From the NCBI RefSeq assembly GCF_001971705.1, contig NZ_CP019327.1:1116001-1180000 (forward strand): a stretch of DNA of 64,000 nucleotides, read 5' to 3'. The translations under genes and the position numbers were made by a program. Shown one piece after another: positions 55,113-64,000 of the stretch. The stretch comes from Natronorubrum daqingense. GTDB taxonomy: Archaea > Halobacteriota > Halobacteria > Halobacteriales > Natrialbaceae. Below the pieces are notes generated by a model, which saw only the letters and a list, made by a program, of their open reading frames with translations, was not told the DNA's origin and did not search any database. The stretch's first letter is position 1, and each line of letters starts with the position of its first letter.

Positions 55113-56021
55113 ATGGAGCCACTCGAGCGGTATCGGCCGATCGTCGACGATTTCGAGGCGTTTCTCGAGGCCTGTGCGCGGCCACTCGGTAGTGCCGTGC
55201 GCATCAACACGATCAAGGCCTCGGTCGACCGGACGCTCGAGGCGCTCGACGAGCACGGTGTCGCGTACGAACAGGCGGCCTGGAACCCTCGCGTCTTGCG
55301 TCTCGAGACGGATTCCCCGGGGTCGACGTGGACCTCGTTCCACGGCTTTACGCACGGGCAGGAGGAGGTTTCGGCGGTTCCACCCGTCGTTCTCGACCCC
55401 CAACCCGGCGAGCGCGTCTGGGACTGCTGCGCTGCCCCCGGCGGGAAGGCGACCCAACTCGCGGCGCGCATGGACGACCGCGGTACCGTCGTCGCGAACG
55501 ACAGCAACCTCGGGCGCATCTCCGCGCTCCGGTTCAACGCGGAGCGACTCGGCGCGACGAGCCTCGCGGTGACGAACGACGACGCTCGGAACTACTCGCT
55601 CGAGCGGTTCACATTCGACGAGTTCGATCGGACGCTCGTCGACGCACCCTGTTCGTGCGAAGGGACGATTCGGAAGAACCCCGACGCGCTGGACAACTGG
55701 TCGGAGGGCCAAATCAGCTCCGTCGCGGGCATTCAGAAGGGAATTCTCCGCCGAGCGATTCAGGCCACCCGCGAGGGCGGCACGGTCGTCTACTCGACGT
55801 GTACGTTCGCCCCCGAGGAGAACGAAGCCGTCGTCCAGCACGCTCTCGAGACCGAATCCTGTCGCGTCGTCGACTTCGACATCGGCCTCGAGTACGCGCC
55901 GGGACTCACCGAGTGGGACGACGAGGAGTACGACGAGAGCCTCGAGCGCGCCGCCAGAATCTACCCGCACCACAACGACACCGGCGGTTTTTTCGTCGCG
56001 AAACTGGAGGTGAGCGCCTGA
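55113..56021 (+). CDS. RNA cytosine-5 methyltransferase (NOP2/RsmB/NSUN family)
   Basis: A SAM-dependent m5C methyltransferase for rRNA or tRNA. The 302-residue protein has SAM motif CCAAPGGKATQLA (about 105-117), VANDSNLGRISALR, and both catalytic cysteines: Cys180 in DAPCSCEG and Cys230 in YSTCTF. N-terminal RNA-contact region GSAVRINTIKAS is present, but the C-terminal PUA-like domain found in many relatives is absent; it is encoded by the next gene, whose ATG overlaps this stop (TGATG). Confidence 0.93.
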   Translation: MEPLERYRPIVDDFEAFLEACARPLGSAVRINTIKASVDRTLEALDEHGVAYEQAAWNPRVLRLETDSPGSTWTSFHGFTHGQEEVSAVPPVVLDPQPGERVWDCCAAPGGKATQLAARMDDRGTVVANDSNLGRISALRFNAERLGATSLAVTNDDARNYSLERFTFDEFDRTLVDAPCSCEGTIRKNPDALDNWSEGQISSVAGIQKGILRRAIQATREGGTVVYSTCTFAPEENEAVVQHALETESCRVVDFDIGLEYAPGLTEWDDEEYDESLERAARIYPHHNDTGGFFVAKLEVSA

Positions 56022-56554
56022 TGGGAGAGGACTCGTCCCCCACGGAGACCGAGCAAAACGACGGCCAGCGGTTCGATCGACTCCCCGAAACGCCCGACGA
56101 GCGAACCGTCGAAGGCCGCGCCAGTCGCGAGGAGGTCGTCGAGTATTTCGACGACCGGTTCGAGATACCACCCGAGACGTTCGACGACTACACCTTCTGG
56201 GAGAAGGGGGCCGGCAAGATCTGGATCTACGCCGGGGAGTCACCGTCGCCCCTCGAGATCGAAGCGATCGGAATGACCTGCCTGCGAACCCGACAGGAAC
56301 ACTGGAAGCCGACGACGGACTTCGCTCAGCGCTTCGGTCGCCACGCGAGTTCGTGCGTAGTCGAACTCGAGGACGACCGGGCAAAACGGTTCGCGGCGGG
56401 CGAAGACCAGGACCTCGAGCGATGGGACGGCGACTGGGGCTACCTGATCGGCGCCCACGAACTAGCCGGTGAACTCGAACCGATCGGAATCGGCCTCTAC
56501 GTTCACGGCGAACTCCGGTCGATGGTGCCGAAAGGCCGACAGCGGGAGCTGTAG
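56021..56554 (+). CDS. PUA-like partner protein of the m5C methyltransferase (DUF7122-like)
   Basis: A 177-residue protein translationally coupled to the methyltransferase. After a disordered acidic N-terminus and EEVVEYFDDRFEIPPETFDDYTFWEKGAGKIWIY, the rest follows the C-terminal domain of NOL1/NOP2/Sun proteins: IEAIGMTCLRTRQEHWKPTTDFAQRFG, CVVELEDDRAKRFAAGEDQ, GYLIGAHELAGELEPIGIGLYVHGELRSMVPKGRQREL. It probably supplies RNA binding in trans. The DUF7122 label is from memory. A decayed copy of its 3' end is found at 58874-58963. Confidence 0.8.
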   Translation: MGEDSSPTETEQNDGQRFDRLPETPDERTVEGRASREEVVEYFDDRFEIPPETFDDYTFWEKGAGKIWIYAGESPSPLEIEAIGMTCLRTRQEHWKPTTDFAQRFGRHASSCVVELEDDRAKRFAAGEDQDLERWDGDWGYLIGAHELAGELEPIGIGLYVHGELRSMVPKGRQREL

Positions 56555-56642
56555 CGGACCAGCCGGCGATATGCCGGCAGCGTCGTTTTGGCGCTGGGTC
56601 CGTACTGTCGAGCACACGTGCACCGTACCGCGAGTGATCACG

Positions 56643-57725
56643 ATGGCCGGTGAGGACGTCGACCCCGGTGAGAACGTCGTTGGCGACAACGAGGTGGAAC
56701 CGCCGTCCACATCGCTGGACGACACGTCCGTCTTCGAACGGCTCAACGCCGAGGAGTTCGTCCGCTGGACGTTCCTCTACGGTGACCGGCGCGTTATCTC
56801 CGGCCTACTACTGCTCGCGGTCTTCGCTGCCTCGCTGTTGCTCATCCGGGGCGGACTGATCACGCCCGCCGAGGCTGGCGACATCACGGCCATCAGCGCG
56901 GCCCTCGTCGGCGGGATGCTCCCCTTTATCACCGTCGTCCTCGCGATCAACCAGCTCATCCTCTCCGAGGAGTTCGGCTCGACCGGCGCCTTCTTCGAGC
57001 GACTCGAGGAGACCCGAGAGTACCGCAAGCGGATCGAAGACCACACCGGCTATCGGCCGACGCCAGCCGAACCGTCGTCGTTCCTCCGCGTCCTGATCGA
57101 GTCGAAGCGCCGGACTGCGCGGGGATTGCAGACCATCTGTCGCGACGGACCGGACGACCTACAGTCGCGGGTCGACGCGTTCGTCTCGCAAACCGACCCG
57201 CGGGATCGGGACGCGATCGAGACGCTCGAGGGCGCCACGTTCGGCTCGTTCACCGTCATCTCCGTCATCCTGCACTACAACGATCCCTGGCAGCTACAGA
57301 TCGTTCGCCAGCTTCGGGAGGGTCATCGAAACGACCTCTCGGAGGCCGCGGACGGACAACTCGAGCGACTCGAGGAACTCCTCGGCGACATCCACATCGC
57401 TCGCCAGTACTTCAAGACGGTGTACATGCAACAGGAGCTCGCCGATCTGTCGAAAATTCTCCTGTACGTCGGCTTTCCGACGCTGTTGGGCGGCGCGTTC
57501 GTCATCGTCTCCTACGGAAACCTGCTGGCGATGGGGCTGCACCCGTCGGTCTACGTGCTGGTCGTCAGTACGACCGTGACGGCGCTGTTCAGTCCCTTCG
57601 CCGTCCTGCTCGTCTACGTCCTCCGGATTGCGACCATCGCCCGCCGGACTGCCGCGGACTTCGGTCCGTTCGTGCTCCAACAGGAGCTTCCACGGGAGGA
57701 GACCGAGATCATGGAGTCGTCGTGA
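56643..57725 (+). CDS. Four-helix membrane protein with large cytoplasmic domain, unknown function
   Basis: A 360-residue protein with two helix pairs: about 54-70 and 80-104 (ISGLLLLAVFAASLLLI, ITAISAALVGGMLPFITVVLAINQLIL) and about 280-300 and 305-335 near the C-terminus. Between them is a 175-residue charged, helical domain (FFERLEETREYRKRIEDHTGY ... LREGHRNDLSEAADGQLERLEELLGD). No family recognised. It lies inside the segment bounded by the intact and decayed copies of the preceding gene's end, so it may have arrived with that insertion. Confidence 0.7.
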   Translation: MAGEDVDPGENVVGDNEVEPPSTSLDDTSVFERLNAEEFVRWTFLYGDRRVISGLLLLAVFAASLLLIRGGLITPAEAGDITAISAALVGGMLPFITVVLAINQLILSEEFGSTGAFFERLEETREYRKRIEDHTGYRPTPAEPSSFLRVLIESKRRTARGLQTICRDGPDDLQSRVDAFVSQTDPRDRDAIETLEGATFGSFTVISVILHYNDPWQLQIVRQLREGHRNDLSEAADGQLERLEELLGDIHIARQYFKTVYMQQELADLSKILLYVGFPTLLGGAFVIVSYGNLLAMGLHPSVYVLVVSTTVTALFSPFAVLLVYVLRIATIARRTAADFGPFVLQQELPREETEIMESS

Positions 57726-57751
57726 GCCGGCGCTAACGAGCACTCGATCGG

Positions 57752-57828
57752 TCGGACGATCAGCCGCTGGCGATCAAGAGTCGGACGATCAGCCGCCGGC
57801 GATCAAGAGTCGGACGATCGGCTGTCGA
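57752..57828. repeat. Tandem 29-base repeats between membrane protein and dioxygenase genes
   Basis: Units at 57752-57780 and 57781-57809 (TCGGACGATCAGCCGCTGGC... and TCGGACGATCAGCCGCCGGC..., differing at one base) are followed by a partial third unit from 57810. They lie just after the stop of the membrane protein and before the convergent dioxygenase. Near identity of units 1 and 2 shows the duplication is recent. Confidence 0.75.
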
Positions 57829-57847
57829 CCAATCGAGGGGTGTCCGA

Positions 57848-58774
57848 TCAGGGGGAGAGCTCCGGCAATCCGGCTTCGATCTCCTCGCGTCTGTCCTCGA
57901 GCCACTCGGTGAGGACGAGCCGTTCGCCTAACTCGTCGAGTTCTTCGTCGACCGTGTAGCCCGGTTCGGCGGTCGCGTACTCGAAGAGCACGCCGCCGTG
58001 TTCGCGGGCGTAAACCGACTCGAACCACTTGCGGTCGATGACCTCGGTCGGGCGGAGCCCCCGGTCCATCAGGAGCTGGCGCCAGTCGGGGTGGTCGTCC
58101 CTCGAAACTCGGAAGGCGACGTGGTGGACGGTTCCCGCGCCGGGGATTCCGCGTGGCGCCTGCGGGTCCTCGAGCACGTCGACGACGTATCCCAGGTCGC
58201 CGTCGGCCTCGTACCGGTTTCGGCGCCCCTCGCGGTCTGTCTGGCGGTACCCCATCGCTTTCAGCAGGTCGCCGGTGGCGTCGCCGCTCGTTAGCGAGAG
58301 CGTGACACCGAAGAAGCCGCGAATCGCGTGCGCGTGGGGAACCGGGCTCTCGGGAAGGTTCGCCGGCGGGGCGTCCTCGCGGGCGACCAGTTCCAGCGGG
58401 AGCCCGTCGGGATCGGTAAACGCCAGAACAGTGTCGCCGAACCGCTCGCGGGGCTCCTCGAGGTCGACGCCGACGTCTTCGAGGCGGTCGCGCCAGTAGT
58501 TAATCGAGCCTGCGGGGACGAGAAACGAGACGGCGGTGGCTTGCCCCGAACCGACTTGTCCGGGTCGGGCGTCGGTGTAGGGAAAGAAAGTCATACTCGT
58601 CCCCGGCGTTCCCTCGTGATCCGCGTAGAACAGGTGATAGACCGAGACGTCGTCCTGGTTGACGCTTCGCTTGACGAGTCGCAAGCCGAGCGTCTCCGTG
58701 TAGAACTCGTAGTTTGCTCGCGGGTCGCTCGCAACCGCGGTGACGTGGTGGATACCGGGAATATCGTCGGGCAT
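57848..58774 (-). CDS. Ring-cleaving dioxygenase / glyoxalase-family protein (MhqO-like)
   Basis: A 308-residue two-module vicinal-oxygen-chelate protein. Metal ligands are His in IHHVTAVASDP at the N-terminus, His in TVHHVAFRVSRDDH and Glu in GVLFEYATAEPG. Length and motif spacing match hydroquinone-type MhqO/PcpA ring-cleaving dioxygenases. Substrate unknown. Convergent with the membrane protein; also inside the suspected inserted segment. Confidence 0.88.
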   Translation of the reverse strand: MPDDIPGIHHVTAVASDPRANYEFYTETLGLRLVKRSVNQDDVSVYHLFYADHEGTPGTSMTFFPYTDARPGQVGSGQATAVSFLVPAGSINYWRDRLEDVGVDLEEPRERFGDTVLAFTDPDGLPLELVAREDAPPANLPESPVPHAHAIRGFFGVTLSLTSGDATGDLLKAMGYRQTDREGRRNRYEADGDLGYVVDVLEDPQAPRGIPGAGTVHHVAFRVSRDDHPDWRQLLMDRGLRPTEVIDRKWFESVYAREHGGVLFEYATAEPGYTVDEELDELGERLVLTEWLEDRREEIEAGLPELSP

Positions 58775-58873
58775 ACGCCTCTTTACGTCGTCAGCGGGGA
58801 TAATGCTGAGGGCGTGCGAACTGGGATACTGAACGGCCAGGACAGCGTGCGGACCGAATCGACGGAGCGGGGC

Positions 58874-58963
58874 GGTGCCGTCGCCATTCGAGATCGAAGC
58901 GATCGGAATCGGCCTCTACGTTCAGGAGTAACTGCGTTCGATGGTGCCGAAGGAACGCTAGCG
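58874..58963 (+). pseudogene. Decayed, internally deleted copy of the 3' end of the PUA-like gene
   Basis: Translated in frame, PSPFEIEAIGIGLYVQE-stop-LRSMVPKER-stop matches two separated parts of the protein encoded at 56021-56554: PSPLEIEAIG and IGLYVHGELRSMVPK. The join falls exactly at CGATCGGAAT, which occurs twice in the parent gene (56265-56274 and 56481-56490, 216 bases apart), so an in-frame deletion between direct repeats created it. It then gained stop codons. It is the right boundary of a 2.4-kb segment holding the membrane protein and dioxygenase. Confidence 0.85.
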
Positions 58964-58973
58964 AACGGTGTAA

Positions 58974-59447
58974 TTACGTTGAGAGCGGCGGCAACTCAGC
59001 CTGTTCGAACCAGAAGGCTTCGATCGCGTGACCCAACTCGGCGAACTCGTCCGGACTGCTCGGTTTCGTCAGATACGCGTTCGCACTGAGATCGTAACTT
59101 TTGGAAATATCGTCGATGGTCTCCGAACTCGTCAGGACGAGGACGGGCGGAGCGGAGAGGTCCGGATCGTCCTCGAGTCGCTCGAGGACGTCGAATCCGC
59201 CCAACCGGGGCAGGTTGAGATCGAGGAGGACGAGGTCGATCGTCGGAAGTGACGGATCCTGTTGGTGGTCGCGCAGGCGCTCGAGTGCCGGATACCCGTC
59301 GGTGACGGTGTGGAATCTCGTCTCGGTGACAGTCTCCTTGAAGGCCTCTTCGATTAACCGTACGTCGCCCGGATTGTCTTCGACGAGCAAGATGTGTATC
59401 GACTCGGTGGAAGGCGAGTGGCTCACGAATGGTGCACGTTCTTCCAC
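58974..59447 (-). CDS. Receiver-only response regulator
   Basis: A 157-residue CheY/Rcp-like protein consisting of a single receiver domain. HILLVEDNPGDVRLIEEAF supplies the acidic pocket, LVLLDLNLPRLGG the phospho-Asp, LVLTSSE the Thr/Ser and YLTKPSS the Lys. No output domain and no histidine kinase gene nearby. Such Rcp1-type proteins shuttle phosphate between kinases. The N-terminal 15 residues before HILLV may be a longer start than used in vivo. Confidence 0.92.
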   Translation of the reverse strand: MEERAPFVSHSPSTESIHILLVEDNPGDVRLIEEAFKETVTETRFHTVTDGYPALERLRDHQQDPSLPTIDLVLLDLNLPRLGGFDVLERLEDDPDLSAPPVLVLTSSETIDDISKSYDLSANAYLTKPSSPDEFAELGHAIEAFWFEQAELPPLST

Positions 59448-59607
59448 TGACAGTTCAACACCTTAAGACTGCACACTACACATGTTGGAACTCGAACGAC
59501 TGCGGGTGATTTCGGGAGGTTCGACGGTCGAAATGAATCAGTCGCTTCGGCCGGTCAGAACACTCCGCTCGAAACGCGTCGTCCGCGACCATCGGTGTCC
59601 GGGAGCC

Positions 59608-60615
59608 TCAGCGGTGTCCGAGTGACTCGCGAATCGACTCGGCCGCGCGCTCGAGTCGCTCGCGCTCGTCGGTCGAGAGGTCCCACTCGACGATTTCGGC
59701 GACGCCGTCGCCGTCGAGGACGACCGGCACGCTCAGAGTGACGCCCTTGAGTCCGTACTCGCCGTCGAGTGGCGTCGCCAGACAGACGGGGTCCGCGTCG
59801 GGGTCGGTCCCACCCTCGAGCAGCCTCGAGACGATCAGCGAGATGCCGCGGCCGGTGACCCACCGCGAGGAGTCTCCGTTGTCCCGCATCTCGATGACGT
59901 CGTAGGGAACCGACCGAACGTAATCGAGGATCTCTACGCGTTCCGATTCCGCGAACTCGACCGGACGGCCGTCGACGGTCGTCCTCGAAAACACCGGCAC
60001 AATGTGTTCCCCATGTTCACCCAGGATCGGACAGTAGACGTCGGCTGGCGACACGTCCCCGTTCGAGGGTTCACGCGCCGAAACCCGTCGAGCGATCTCG
60101 TCCGCGATTCGAGCCGTTTCTGACAGCGAGTAGCCGAGGAACGAACCCCGCGGCCAGCCACTCGCTTCCCAGAGGCGGTGGGTCACCCGATCGGAGGGGT
60201 TCGCGACGACGACGGTCGGCGTCGGATCGGCCGACGCGAACCACTCGCCGAGATCGCTCGCGATCTCGAGGTTTCGCTCGAGGACGGACAGTCGGCCGCC
60301 GCGTTCGAGACTGTCCGAACTCCGAGGCTCGCTCGCGGTGACGACGATGGCGTCTGCAGCCTCGACGGGGTCGGGCTCGGGACTCGAGGTGGGATCGACG
60401 ACGGAGACGTCGCCGAGTGTTGAGGCCTCGAACTCCGGCCGGCCGATCGCGTGCGCTGCGTGAGAGCGAGAGTGGAACAGATCGATCGCGTGCCCTTCCG
60501 CGCGTTCTGCTTTCGGGTCGGCGAGCGTCACCTCGAGTGACGGATGTTGCGTCGCGAGCGTGTACGCGACGGTCGAACCGATCGTTCCCCCGCCGCCGAC
60601 GACGAGTACGTGCAT
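59608..60615 (-). CDS. Malate/lactate dehydrogenase-family protein with altered active site
   Basis: A 335-residue NAD-dependent LDH/MDH-fold protein: dinucleotide motif VLVVGGGGTIGSTVAYTLA, coenzyme Asp in VTLADPKAE, VVVANPSDRVTHRLWEASGWPRGSFLGY, catalytic His in LGEHGEHIVPVFSRTTVDG and LSVPVVLDGDGVAEIVEWDL at the end. The Asp of the usual Asp-His pair appears as Glu in SETARI, and the mobile-loop segment PRSSDSLERGGR is shifted. Relation to haloarchaeal malate dehydrogenase is clear, but substrate may differ. Start at 60615 gives the canonical N-terminus. Confidence 0.8.
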   Translation of the reverse strand: MHVLVVGGGGTIGSTVAYTLATQHPSLEVTLADPKAERAEGHAIDLFHSRSHAAHAIGRPEFEASTLGDVSVVDPTSSPEPDPVEAADAIVVTASEPRSSDSLERGGRLSVLERNLEIASDLGEWFASADPTPTVVVANPSDRVTHRLWEASGWPRGSFLGYSLSETARIADEIARRVSAREPSNGDVSPADVYCPILGEHGEHIVPVFSRTTVDGRPVEFAESERVEILDYVRSVPYDVIEMRDNGDSSRWVTGRGISLIVSRLLEGGTDPDADPVCLATPLDGEYGLKGVTLSVPVVLDGDGVAEIVEWDLSTDERERLERAAESIRESLGHR

Positions 60616-61029
60616 ACTCGCCAATTTACGTCGGCTTCCTTGAATGGTTCCCATGGCACACGGACACGGTGGGTAGCGTTTTCGGAGGCGTCCGATTTTC
60701 CGCCACTCGGTTCGACACCGAAGACACGACCGATTGGCTGGCAGCTATTGTTCGACGGTGTATCCAGCCACCGCCAGGACCACGTACAGGTGGAGACGAC
60801 CGCTGCGGTCGCGACGCAAGCACACCGTCCGCGAGCGGCTGGCGGGAGCGAGCGGCCTTGTAACGTATACTTTTGCACCGAGAGGTACGTGATCGAAGTC
60901 GTTCGAAAGACGCAAAGCGACGTTCGTGATGACGAGAAACCGCTGGTTTCTCGGCCCACGAGCGAACCCGAGGCGTACAAAGGGACATCCAGAGTGTACA
61001 GAGAGCGTCGGCTCAGGCGTGCAATCTTC
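60616..61029. other. Intergenic region between dehydrogenase and cspA, with a perfect hairpin
   Basis: No convincing gene is seen in this part of the 466-base gap. A hairpin CGAGAAACC-GCT-GGTTTCTCG (60933-60953, 9-base perfect stem) stands out and could belong to a small RNA or terminator. The remainder holds the dehydrogenase promoter. Confidence 0.45.
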
Positions 61030-61068
61030 TGAAAAATTGAAATTGTTGTCTGTCGCTGTGAACGACAG
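61030..61068 (-). terminator. Hairpin and T tract after cspA
   Basis: On the minus strand, 14 bases after the cspA stop, CTGTCG (61063-61068 side) pairs with CGACAG (61050-61055 side) around a 7-base loop and is followed by a T-rich run (AATTTCAATTTTTC, 61030-61043). This has the form of an intrinsic terminator. Confidence 0.6.
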
Positions 61069-61081
61069 TTGTGTCTCGGTA

Positions 61082-61288
61082 TTACTGCCGAACGACGTTC
61101 GTCGCGCGAGGCCCCTTGGGCGAGGACTCGATGTCGAACTCGACCTCAGTCCCTTCCGTGAGGTCTTCGCCGCCGACATCCTCCATGTGGAAGAAAACGT
61201 CTTCGTCGTCGTCGAGGTCGCCGTCATCTGTCGAAATGAAACCGTAGCCGCCAGTGTCGTTGAAGAAATCAACCTTACCGTTTGCCAT
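61082..61288 (-). CDS. cspA: Cold-shock-domain RNA chaperone
   Basis: A 68-residue single cold-shock domain protein that binds single-stranded nucleic acids. RNP1-like KVDFFNDTGGYGFIST and RNP2-like DVFFHMEDV are both present, and the end GPRATNVV is typical. Acidic residues (DDGDLDDDED) inserted in the loop are a halophile adaptation. Start at 61288 follows a short or absent leader. A perfect palindrome lies 44-59 bases upstream and a terminator follows. Confidence 0.94.
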   Translation of the reverse strand: MANGKVDFFNDTGGYGFISTDDGDLDDDEDVFFHMEDVGGEDLTEGTEVEFDIESSPKGPRATNVVRQ

Positions 61289-61331
61289 TACAAACAAATA
61301 GTGAGTTGGACGAGGGATAACCCTTCCGATG

Positions 61332-61347
61332 GTCGTGGTACCACGAC
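61332..61347. promoter_or_regulatory. 16-base perfect palindrome upstream of cspA
   Basis: GTCGTGGT followed directly by ACCACGAC forms a gapless 16-base dyad, 44-59 bases before the cspA start on the minus strand, just upstream of the probable TATA element (TTAT near 61316-61319). It could be an activator or repressor site; chance occurrence of a 16-base perfect dyad in this position is low but not negligible. Confidence 0.5.
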
Positions 61348-61546
61348 TCTTCACCCACATTCGCACGCAACGTTTGCGACCACGGTATCGTGATACGTGG
61401 CTGAAATGGACCCTGAAACAGGTCTTCACAGCTAGTCATCTCACATCGCCGAACGACTCGAGTCTCGTGTCTACCTTCAATCCTCGCGACGTACCGGGTC
61501 GCCGGTAACTGAAATTACAAGGGAGACCTGGCACATCCTCACATTC

Positions 61547-62944
61547 GTGGAGCCATCGGCAGGGTCGGGACGTGATCGGCTCATCGACATCTGGAGACGC
61601 GTGTTCGGCCTCTCCTGGCCGGTAATGGCAGAGCAGGTCCTCCGGACGCTGATGCGGACCACCGACCTCCTCGTCGCGGGGATGTTCTCTCCCGCCGCGG
61701 TCGCAGCCGTCGGCCTCGCGGATATCTACGGCCGCCTCCCCCTCTGGTTCGGTCTCGGTGTCGGCGACGGCGCGATCGCCCTCTCGAGTCAGGATACGGG
61801 AAGCGGACAGACGGCCAATCGAGACGAAGCCGTCACGCAGGCGCTCTTGCTCGGTATTCTCGCGGGGATTCCCTTCGCCCTGTTTGGACTCGTCGGGAGC
61901 TACTGGGCGATCGACGTCCTCGGCGCGGAGTCCGAGACCGTCCGGCTGGGCGGGCAGTATCTGGCGATCATCTTCCTGACGGCACCCGCGTTTCACGTGA
62001 CGATGATCGCCGCGCGAGCGATTCAGGGGACCGGCGACACGCGAACGCCGATGTACATCAACGCCGTGGCGAACGCGCTCAACATCGGCCTCACCGTGGG
62101 ACTGGCGTTCGGCCTCGGGCCGTTTCCGGAGCTATCGATCGTCGGCATCGCCGTCGCGACGGCCATCGGTGACGTGCTCGCCGCACTGACGTTTCTCGCC
62201 GTCATTTACAGCTCCTGGAGCGATTTGGGATTCGTCCGGCCGTCCCAGCCCGTCATCATGAAACAATTGCTCGTGATCAGTTCGCCGCGCATCGCCGAGG
62301 GGATCACCGAACTGATCGCCGAGTTCCCGTTCAACGCGATCTTGCTCGGGTTCGGTACCGGCGACGAGGTGAACGCGGCCTATCACGTCGGCAGACGGGT
62401 CTACCAGCAGATCTCCTCGCCACTCGCGCGGGGATACGGCGTCGCCGCGAACGTTCTCTCCGGACAGGCCTTGGGCCGCGGCGAGTCCGAGAAGGCGTAC
62501 TTCAACGGCCTCGCGACCGCCGCGCTCGCGGTTCTGACCGTCGGTGGGCTCGGTGTCGTGATCTTCGTCTTCGCCGAGACCGTCGTCCAACTGTTCTCGA
62601 ACGATCCGGAAACGATCGGCTACGCCGTCGGCTTCGCGCAGGCCTACGCCATCTCGACGTTTCTCATCGCCTGCTACGTCGTCCTCGCCGGTTCGCTTCG
62701 GGGCGGCAGCGAGACTCGGCCACCGTTCGTCGCGAAGGTCACCGGTGCCGTCTTCTTCTTGCTCGGCATCACCTACGTCTTCGGCGTCCAACTCGAGTAC
62801 GGCGTCACCGCCGCCTACGTCGCTATCGTCGCCGACTTCGTCTGGCGAAACCTCGTGGTCGGTGCCGTCTACCTCCGAGGACACTGGCTCGAGCGGGGCC
62901 TCTCGATGATGCACGAACGCGGAAGCCTCTCTAACGACGATTAA
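61547..62944 (+). CDS. MATE-family efflux transporter
   Basis: A 465-residue multidrug/toxic compound extruder with 12 predicted helices. Family stretches are LSWPVMAEQVLRTLMRTTDLLVAG at helix 1, the helix-5/6 region AARAIQGTGDTRTPMYINAVANALNIGL, and the repeat half SSPRIAEGITELIAEFPFNAILLGFGTGD with AANVLSGQALGRGESEKA. Probably driven by H+ or Na+. GTG start at 61547, with an A/T-rich AATTAC box about 30 bases before, fits a leaderless transcript. Convergent with the DUF790 gene, 24 bases apart. Confidence 0.92.
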   Translation: MEPSAGSGRDRLIDIWRRVFGLSWPVMAEQVLRTLMRTTDLLVAGMFSPAAVAAVGLADIYGRLPLWFGLGVGDGAIALSSQDTGSGQTANRDEAVTQALLLGILAGIPFALFGLVGSYWAIDVLGAESETVRLGGQYLAIIFLTAPAFHVTMIAARAIQGTGDTRTPMYINAVANALNIGLTVGLAFGLGPFPELSIVGIAVATAIGDVLAALTFLAVIYSSWSDLGFVRPSQPVIMKQLLVISSPRIAEGITELIAEFPFNAILLGFGTGDEVNAAYHVGRRVYQQISSPLARGYGVAANVLSGQALGRGESEKAYFNGLATAALAVLTVGGLGVVIFVFAETVVQLFSNDPETIGYAVGFAQAYAISTFLIACYVVLAGSLRGGSETRPPFVAKVTGAVFFLLGITYVFGVQLEYGVTAAYVAIVADFVWRNLVVGAVYLRGHWLERGLSMMHERGSLSNDD

Positions 62945-62968
62945 GCGCTCCAACGACGTTGCGGACCC

Positions 62969-64000
62969 TCACTCGCGCCGCTCGAGCGTGCCGCCGGCCA
63001 AGCCCTCCCACTCGACGCGGTAGCCGAGTTCCGCGAGGATCGCACTCGAGTCGGAGATGCCCACCTCCTCGAGCACATCCTCTGCGTCCGCGAGATCCAT
63101 CCCGACCTCGACGTCTTCGGCCAGCGACTCGAGCACTGACGGGCGAACGAGCGTTCTCCCGACTCGCTCGTGTTCCGGAAAGGCGACGTCCGCCAGTGCG
63201 TCCTCGCTCACGCCGTGAGCTGCGGCGAGGTCCTCGAGCGAGCGGACGTCCGCGTCGAGTCGCAACTCTGCGGGCAAGTCGGCGGCGCTCTCGGCGACGA
63301 GTTGGCGTTCGTACTCCCGAAGCACGGCCGCGACGTCTTTCATCCGAACGGTGCCCGTGTAGGGAATCGCCCGGAAATCCCGCGCCTCGATTTCCTCGCC
63401 GACGCCGAGTGACTCGTCGACGGCGACGACGAGTTCGACGTCCTCGAGTCCCTCGAGTTGGGCGAGTTTCTTCTCGACGTACTCGGGCGTCCAAAAGCCC
63501 ATAATTTCGACGTAAACGCGAAAGTCGCGGTGTGCGTAGTCGAACGCGAAATCGGGAATCATCACCCGCGTTCCCGTCGCGAGGGGTTCTGGCTCGCGCT
63601 GGAGGTCCCACTCAAGGTCGAGCGTCGAAAACCGGCCGGCGAAGTCGGCTTCCACGCCGCTGTCGAACGAGACGTCCGTCACGGGCTCCGCGTCGGGAAC
63701 GCGAACCGGATCCTCGTCGGACAGGGAGAGGGTCCGTTCGGTTCCGCGGTCGTCGATCGTGGCCTCGAGCGACCACTCCTCGGCCTTCGCGACGGTTCGC
63801 AGGAGCCGTGCGAAGCGCGTTCCGTACCGACGCGTCGCCCGAAAGAGGCGGGTCGGGCCAGTGACGACGATTTCGCGTTCGGCGATTCCGACATCGTCGT
63901 CGTCCGTCGCCGTGGAATCTGGAGTCAGCCGCTCGATTTCGTACATCAATCGCAGGCGCTTGATCGCCGAGACCAGCACCTTCGGATCGCTCGAGCGAAC
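62969..64000 (-). CDS. DUF790/Bax1-like nuclease, C-terminal part, cut by window edge
   Basis: The gene continues beyond position 64000; 343 codons are visible and the in-frame sequence at the edge reads VRSSDPKVLVSAIKRLRLMYEIE. Archaeal Bax1 (DUF790) proteins are structure-specific nucleases acting with the XPB helicase in nucleotide excision repair. The PD-(D/E)xK-like core is seen in RVMIPDFAFDYAHRDFRVYVEIMGFWTPEYVEKKLAQLE. The C-terminal part holds helical repeats with SLEDLAAAHGVSEDALADVAFPEHERVGRTLVRPS. An XPB gene would be expected just outside the window on the right. Confidence 0.85.
   Translation of the reverse strand, partial: VRSSDPKVLVSAIKRLRLMYEIERLTPDSTATDDDDVGIAEREIVVTGPTRLFRATRRYGTRFARLLRTVAKAEEWSLEATIDDRGTERTLSLSDEDPVRVPDAEPVTDVSFDSGVEADFAGRFSTLDLEWDLQREPEPLATGTRVMIPDFAFDYAHRDFRVYVEIMGFWTPEYVEKKLAQLEGLEDVELVVAVDESLGVGEEIEARDFRAIPYTGTVRMKDVAAVLREYERQLVAESAADLPAELRLDADVRSLEDLAAAHGVSEDALADVAFPEHERVGRTLVRPSVLESLAEDVEVGMDLADAEDVLEEVGISDSSAILAELGYRVEWEGLAGGTLERRE

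Follow-up and report, generated by a model that had tools for sequence, protein, structure and literature searches.

The window analysed here, a 64,000-nucleotide stretch of the Natronorubrum daqingense chromosome (contig NZ_CP019327.1, positions 1,116,001 to 1,180,000), contains a DUF7122 (PUA-like) gene followed by a membrane-protein gene (MEM), a VOC-family dioxygenase-like gene (DIOX) and a decayed repeat of the DUF7122 gene's own 3' part. We attribute this arrangement to the import of the two genes into the end of the DUF7122 gene, with the tail of the resident copy left to decay beyond the insert, an explanation to which we give a probability of roughly four in five. In the common ancestor of the window and its sister genome (L108, hereafter G005), the DUF7122 gene would have lain tail to tail with a response regulator gene (RR). 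A fragment from a relative of the clade of N. texcoconense and a further genome (L116, hereafter G009), carrying its own DUF7122 end together with the membrane-protein and dioxygenase genes, would then have recombined with the resident chromosome in the window's lineage, presumably in a single event. The left exchange would have been homologous and have fallen within the conserved terminal ~50 bp of the DUF7122 gene, so that this gene stayed whole and acquired a donor tail. At the right end, the donor's next gene was probably joined to the middle of the resident DUF7122 gene through a short patch of similarity, which would leave a second resident copy of the 3' part. Being redundant, this copy would then have lost the stretch between two 10-bp repeats and acquired two nonsense mutations. 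The parts of the locus on which the argument draws are as follows, in window coordinates.

55113-56021, plus strand: RsmB/F-type (NOL1/NOP2/sun) RNA m5C methyltransferase (PF01189, TIGR00446), left core neighbour, resident; groups with G005 in its tree (support 1.0)
56021-56554, plus strand: DUF7122 (PUA-like) gene (PF23437, N-terminal), a mosaic that is resident to at least 56503 and donor-type at its very end
56504-56545, no strand: left (homologous) crossover interval, a stretch alike in donor and resident types
56546-58867, no strand: probable imported segment, about 2.3 kb, nearest to the N. texcoconense clade; includes the left intergenic DNA
56643-57725, plus strand: membrane protein gene (MEM), no Pfam family
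57848-58774, minus strand: VOC-family (glyoxalase/dioxygenase fold) gene (DIOX; PF00903)
58775-58867, no strand: donor intergenic DNA, 5' of the dioxygenase gene; aligns with N. texcoconense and G009 to about the donor response regulator stop
58855-58885, no strand: right junction, a putative microhomology join between the donor response-regulator end and the resident DUF7122 gene
58868-58973, plus strand: pseudogene remnant of the resident DUF7122 gene; mid-gene block and 3' end, 216-bp in-frame deletion, two nonsense codons
58974-59426, minus strand: response regulator (RR; PF00072), resident; stop codon directly adjoining the original stop of the remnant

The PUA-like name of the DUF7122 gene reflects a sub-threshold C-terminal Pfam match only (weak PF13636, Methyltranf_PUA).

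The decayed copy of the DUF7122 gene

A decayed repeat of the PUA-like gene's 3' end, located after the membrane protein and dioxygenase genes, had been described in the initial annotation of the window. The repeat is confirmed, but its limits of 58874-58963 were too narrow, as it occupies 58868-58973 and consists of two blocks. The first corresponds to mid-gene positions ~56233-56274 and the second to the 3' end (~56475-56553), and they are fused at a single copy of the 10-bp repeat CGATCGGAAT, which the gene carries twice, at 56265-56274 and 56481-56490, 216 bp apart. The fusion, at 58900-58909, thus corresponds to an in-frame 216-bp deletion. Translated in frame, the remnant reads EIEAIGIGLYVQE*LRSMVPKER*RTV and then reaches the original stop (58971-58973), with premature stops at 58929-58931 and 58959-58961.

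In gap-tolerant alignment the remnant matched the G005 gene (score 149.7) better than the DUF7122 gene of the window itself (95.7), and the best of 500 codon shuffles reached 44. Its left block is of the resident type (CCGTCGCC..GAAGCG, where the N. texcoconense/G009 type would read GAGACGCC..GAGGCC/GAAGCC), and its 3' terminus carries the same stop and junction sequence as G005. When the DUF7122 gene was searched genome-wide, the remnant was the only significant second match (74 bits, E 1e-13), the next having an E value of 1.7e-4. These alignments identify the repeat as a decayed resident copy of the 3' part of the DUF7122 gene.

The repeat sits upstream of the dioxygenase gene, a position that would also suit a conserved regulatory sequence, as the initial annotation had considered. 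We give this possibility virtually no credence: the repeat is made of two ordered coding blocks that include the original stop, its alignment score compares with a shuffle maximum of 43-44, and it is missing at the same place in N. texcoconense, N. halalkaliphilum, G009 and every other locus entry tested. Site-specific integration by an integrase at the gene's 3' end, with the remnant as a duplicated attachment (att) site, would be consistent with a gene end that is kept and repeated on the far side, as in integration at tRNA genes or gene ends. This too is very improbable. As had been annotated, no integrase or transposase was recognisable between the flanking genes, among either the open reading frames (ORFs) of the insert or their Pfam matches. 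Moreover, the remnant includes a mid-gene block and a deletion, its 3' part represents a diverged allele of the resident gene and not a short exact att repeat, and no repeat accompanies these genes in relatives that have them at the corresponding site. Comparable DUF7122 remnants near the gene were absent from 89 relatives' entries, which include five genomes entered twice (best E ~1e-7, versus 6e-16 in the window); the gene end therefore served as an anchor here, not as a recurrent attachment site.

The short arrangement in the sister genome

G005 is the closest genome compared, with a median gene identity of 94.7% at the nucleotide level, and its gene order is methyltransferase, DUF7122 gene and response regulator. 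The last two lie tail to tail with touching stops (TAATTA) in the sequence GTGTAATTACG, and the same sequence ends the window remnant. The window and G005 loci are the same, since gene order and identity agree on both sides (amino acid identities of 97% for GGR, 96% for the methyltransferase, 92% for the response regulator, 91% for the lactate/malate dehydrogenase-family protein, MDH, and 98% for the MatE transporter). Across the whole G005 genome, the dioxygenase had no match at E<=1e-40 and the membrane protein no close homologue, with 33% paralogues only. A relative without 56643-58870, in which the PUA-like gene is joined to the response regulator, had been predicted from the window, along with the order methyltransferase, PUA-like gene, response regulator as the ancestral one; G005 supplies both, and its lack of close homologues runs counter to the alternative that all close relatives carry the two genes.

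On this reading, the short arrangement is ancestral to the window and G005. The long arrangement is probably older in the family, and the window lineage may have lost and then regained the MEM-DIOX pair, since the fuller order in Natronolimnohabitans innermongolicus (L020), with a membrane-protein fragment followed by dioxygenase, response regulator, MDH and MatE genes, resembles that of the window.

Probable origin of the inserted segment

The order DUF7122, membrane protein, dioxygenase and response regulator is found in N. texcoconense and N. halalkaliphilum, and the order DUF7122, dioxygenase and response regulator in G009. The intergenic DNA at 56555-56640 has about 90% identity to N. texcoconense and cannot be aligned to G005. 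Per 60 bp, nucleotide identity of the segment to N. texcoconense is mostly 85-98%, falling lower in indel-rich stretches and near the right end. The membrane protein shares 96-97% of its amino acids with that of N. texcoconense and 92% with that of N. halalkaliphilum, and the response regulator only 65% with its N. texcoconense counterpart.

Synonymous divergence (dS) to N. texcoconense was 0.25 for the ORF holding MEM and 0.35 for DIOX, the two lowest values of 112 genes (median 0.68); of the flanking genes, the methyltransferase had a dS of 0.55 and the response regulator one of 1.38. The background for these values was drawn from 460 kb of the window's chromosome and 400 kb of each relative; nine ORFs with a dS to N. 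texcoconense below that of MEM were excluded on account of a nonsynonymous divergence (dN) exceeding dS, being probably wrong-frame ORFs. Gene trees placed DIOX with N. texcoconense and G009 (support 1.0) and MEM with N. texcoconense, and the methyltransferase, GGR and response regulator with G005 (support 1.0). Eight of the 25 best matches to the membrane protein adjoin a DUF7122 gene (the window, N. texcoconense, N. halalkaliphilum, four members of genus g10 and G105), and the rest have none within 1.5 kb. The proposed comparison of base composition gave GC fractions of 0.643 and 0.667 for the inserted genes, similar to their neighbours, which is uninformative on origin because donor and recipient are closely related.

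The long arrangement might instead have descended vertically with a duplicated gene end, G005 having lost the segment through recombination between the gene-end copies. Its occurrence in N. texcoconense and N. halalkaliphilum, and more fully in L020, makes the long order probably old, and deletion between direct repeats would yield the G005 structure. However, vertical descent would leave unexplained the two lowest dS values to N. texcoconense, the grouping of MEM and DIOX with N. texcoconense and G009 against the flanks, and a resident gene end that abuts the window's response regulator without N. texcoconense-like intergenic DNA, and we consider it improbable.

The two junctions

On the left, the last site that is common to the window and G005 yet rare in 18 other genomes is position 56503. 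Between 56508 and 56549 the window diverges from G005, often toward other genomes, and from 56555 it follows N. texcoconense; the donor-type GGGAGCTGTAGCGGACCA and the intergenic DNA both come after 56503. Because resident-specific sites end at 56503 and the sequence is N. texcoconense-like by 56555, the left exchange is placed within ~50 bp of the DUF7122 gene's end, a stretch in which the G005 and N. texcoconense types are identical over 30 bp. The mosaic DUF7122 end, with its crossover in 56504-56545, corresponds to the homologous junction that characterizes homology-facilitated illegitimate recombination.

On the right, donor-like intergenic DNA extends to about the donor response regulator stop. 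When boundaries of 260-275 bp from N. texcoconense and G009 were compared with the resident DUF7122 gene over its whole length, the best local match for G009, ACGCCGG..GG.GGCA.CGTCGCCTC, fell at the remnant's left limit, as did a similar patch for N. texcoconense. These matches comprise about 18-22 matching bases with a gap, in a short GC-rich patch from genomes that do not include the true donor, and were reached by 0/500 shuffles for G009 and 11/500 for N. texcoconense. Only the left end is clearly homologous, and the right end looks like a microhomology join. The initial suggestion of imported DNA with a homologous end is upheld by the mosaic gene end and the low dS to the N. texcoconense clade.

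A circular molecule that entered through a single Campbell-type crossover within the DUF7122 gene would also produce two hybrid copies, the second of which then decayed. Judging from the anatomy of the locus, this would account for a second copy extending upstream of the crossover, and one exchange would suffice. The left block of the second copy should then be donor-type, yet it matches the resident type, although the comparison covers a block of just 42 bp and relatives of the donor; on balance, such an origin seems rather unlikely.

Several observations weigh against the import of a fragment with one homologous and one microhomologous end. The patch of microhomology is short with a high GC content, and N. 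halalkaliphilum, the third genome of donor type, has a 9-bp match at the edge only. The mid-gene block of the remnant lies upstream of the left crossover, so that a single simple exchange is insufficient and an extra step is needed. Since this left block is resident-type, resident sequence from ~56242 to 56503 (about 260 bp) would once have been present on both sides of the insert, which calls for an unequal exchange involving two copies of the chromosome or for gene conversion of the left copy at a later time. Either route is plausible, given that haloarchaea are polyploid and that H. volcanii equalizes its genome copies (PMC10085750). The exact donor is absent from the genomes compared, N. 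texcoconense and G009 being relatives with about 90% identity across the segment, and the use of one genome per species leaves a single sister with the short arrangement. The flanks are also unusually diverged between the window and G005 (dS ranks of 113/121 for the methyltransferase and 111/121 for the response regulator, in one genome pair), and more than one exchange may therefore have touched the locus.

Apparent gene turnover between DUF7122 and DUF790

The DUF7122 gene and a DUF790 gene are convergent in 67 of the 70 locus entries, separated by a gap of 3 bp to 6.4 kb, and the first gene downstream of DUF7122 is of 38 kinds according to mechanical ORF clustering. From 3 bp in several Halorussus and Haladaptatus genomes and about 80 bp in part of this genus, the gap widens to 2.9 kb in N. 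texcoconense, 4.0 kb in G005 and 6.4 kb in the window (56555-62968). The same core pair bounds differing content across genomes, in nearly every lineage; the gap looks like a site of continual gene turnover between fixed core genes, and marks a recurrent place of such turnover across haloarchaea. In the window, the content between the flanking core genes comprises the membrane protein, dioxygenase, response regulator, Ldh/MDH, a protein that we take from its sequence to be a cold-shock protein, and MatE. The remaining features of the gap and its right boundary are these.

59608-60654, minus strand: lactate/malate dehydrogenase-family gene (Ldh/MDH; PF02866/PF00056), part of the resident cargo common to the window and G005
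61547-62944, plus strand: MatE transporter (PF01554), last gene of the resident cargo common to the window and G005
62969-64000, continuing beyond the window end, minus strand: DUF790 (Bax1-like) gene (PF05626, E 5e-127), right core boundary of the variable gap

The gap adjoins a probable DNA-repair gene (DUF790, Bax1-like); DUF790 proteins are Bax1, the nuclease partner of archaeal XPB. The methyltransferase and response regulator are among the genes most diverged between the window and G005 at synonymous sites, suggesting further exchanges around the insert. In G009, the DUF7122 gene (L116, 6001-6552) matches in two pieces about 40 nucleotides apart near the 3' end. The frame stays open, as would follow from a short in-frame insertion near the same gene end. 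In three Natrinema genomes (L048, L045 and L055), the DUF790 gene is 5.7-7.1 kb away and in an orientation opposite to the usual convergent one.

Within the imported segment, two tandem 29-bp units that are 97% alike (57751-57808) lie between the end of the membrane-protein gene and that of the dioxygenase gene. They probably represent a recent tandem duplication, since identity to N. texcoconense falls there. The region at 58775-58867 probably holds the dioxygenase gene promoter.

Comparison with known systems

When genes are gained without mobile elements, the evidence is usually statistical. Here an insert-free sister, a near donor, a homologous exchange and what is left of the old gene are found together at one locus, so that the mechanism by which haloarchaea add genes can be put to the test. 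The processes are known ones, of which the event is a clear and unusually well resolved example. We suggest more tentatively, as a possibility short of even odds, that it is a natural instance, resolved in fine detail, of homology-facilitated illegitimate recombination between species of haloarchaea, in a convergent core-gene gap that repeatedly gains and loses cargo, with the anchor gene left whole with a donor tail and with recombination between polyploid chromosome copies explaining the resident sequence on both sides.

Homology-facilitated illegitimate recombination is a system of Acinetobacter, Pseudomonas stutzeri and Streptococcus, and was proposed by the authors of a study of Vibrio cholerae type VI secretion system effector-immunity arrays, in which the 3' part of the old gene is left behind (PMC5361080). 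The window resembles these cases in that homology within a conserved gene anchors one end and the other end is apparently illegitimate, with genes added and the displaced part persisting as a downstream orphan. It differs in that the anchor is an intact core gene and the leftover extends upstream of the crossover. The host, moreover, is a haloarchaeon, and the event is inferred from sequence.

Hotspots of gene turnover flanked by core genes and free of mobile elements have been described in bacteria (Oliveira et al. 2017, PMC5635113). Like them, the DUF7122-DUF790 gap has fixed core genes around a content that varies, lacks a recognisable integrase and has a repair-type gene at one boundary; the divergence of its flanks in one genome pair may be a further likeness. 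Those hotspots were bacterial, within species and shaped by double homologous exchange, whereas the present comparison is across archaeal species and one end is apparently not homologous. Interspecies homologous recombination is frequent in haloarchaea (PMC4500145), and the window has in common with the exchange reported in 2012 and reviewed there a homologous recombination between diverged haloarchaeal species; unlike the allele replacement of that exchange, the outcome in the window is the addition of genes together with a scar.

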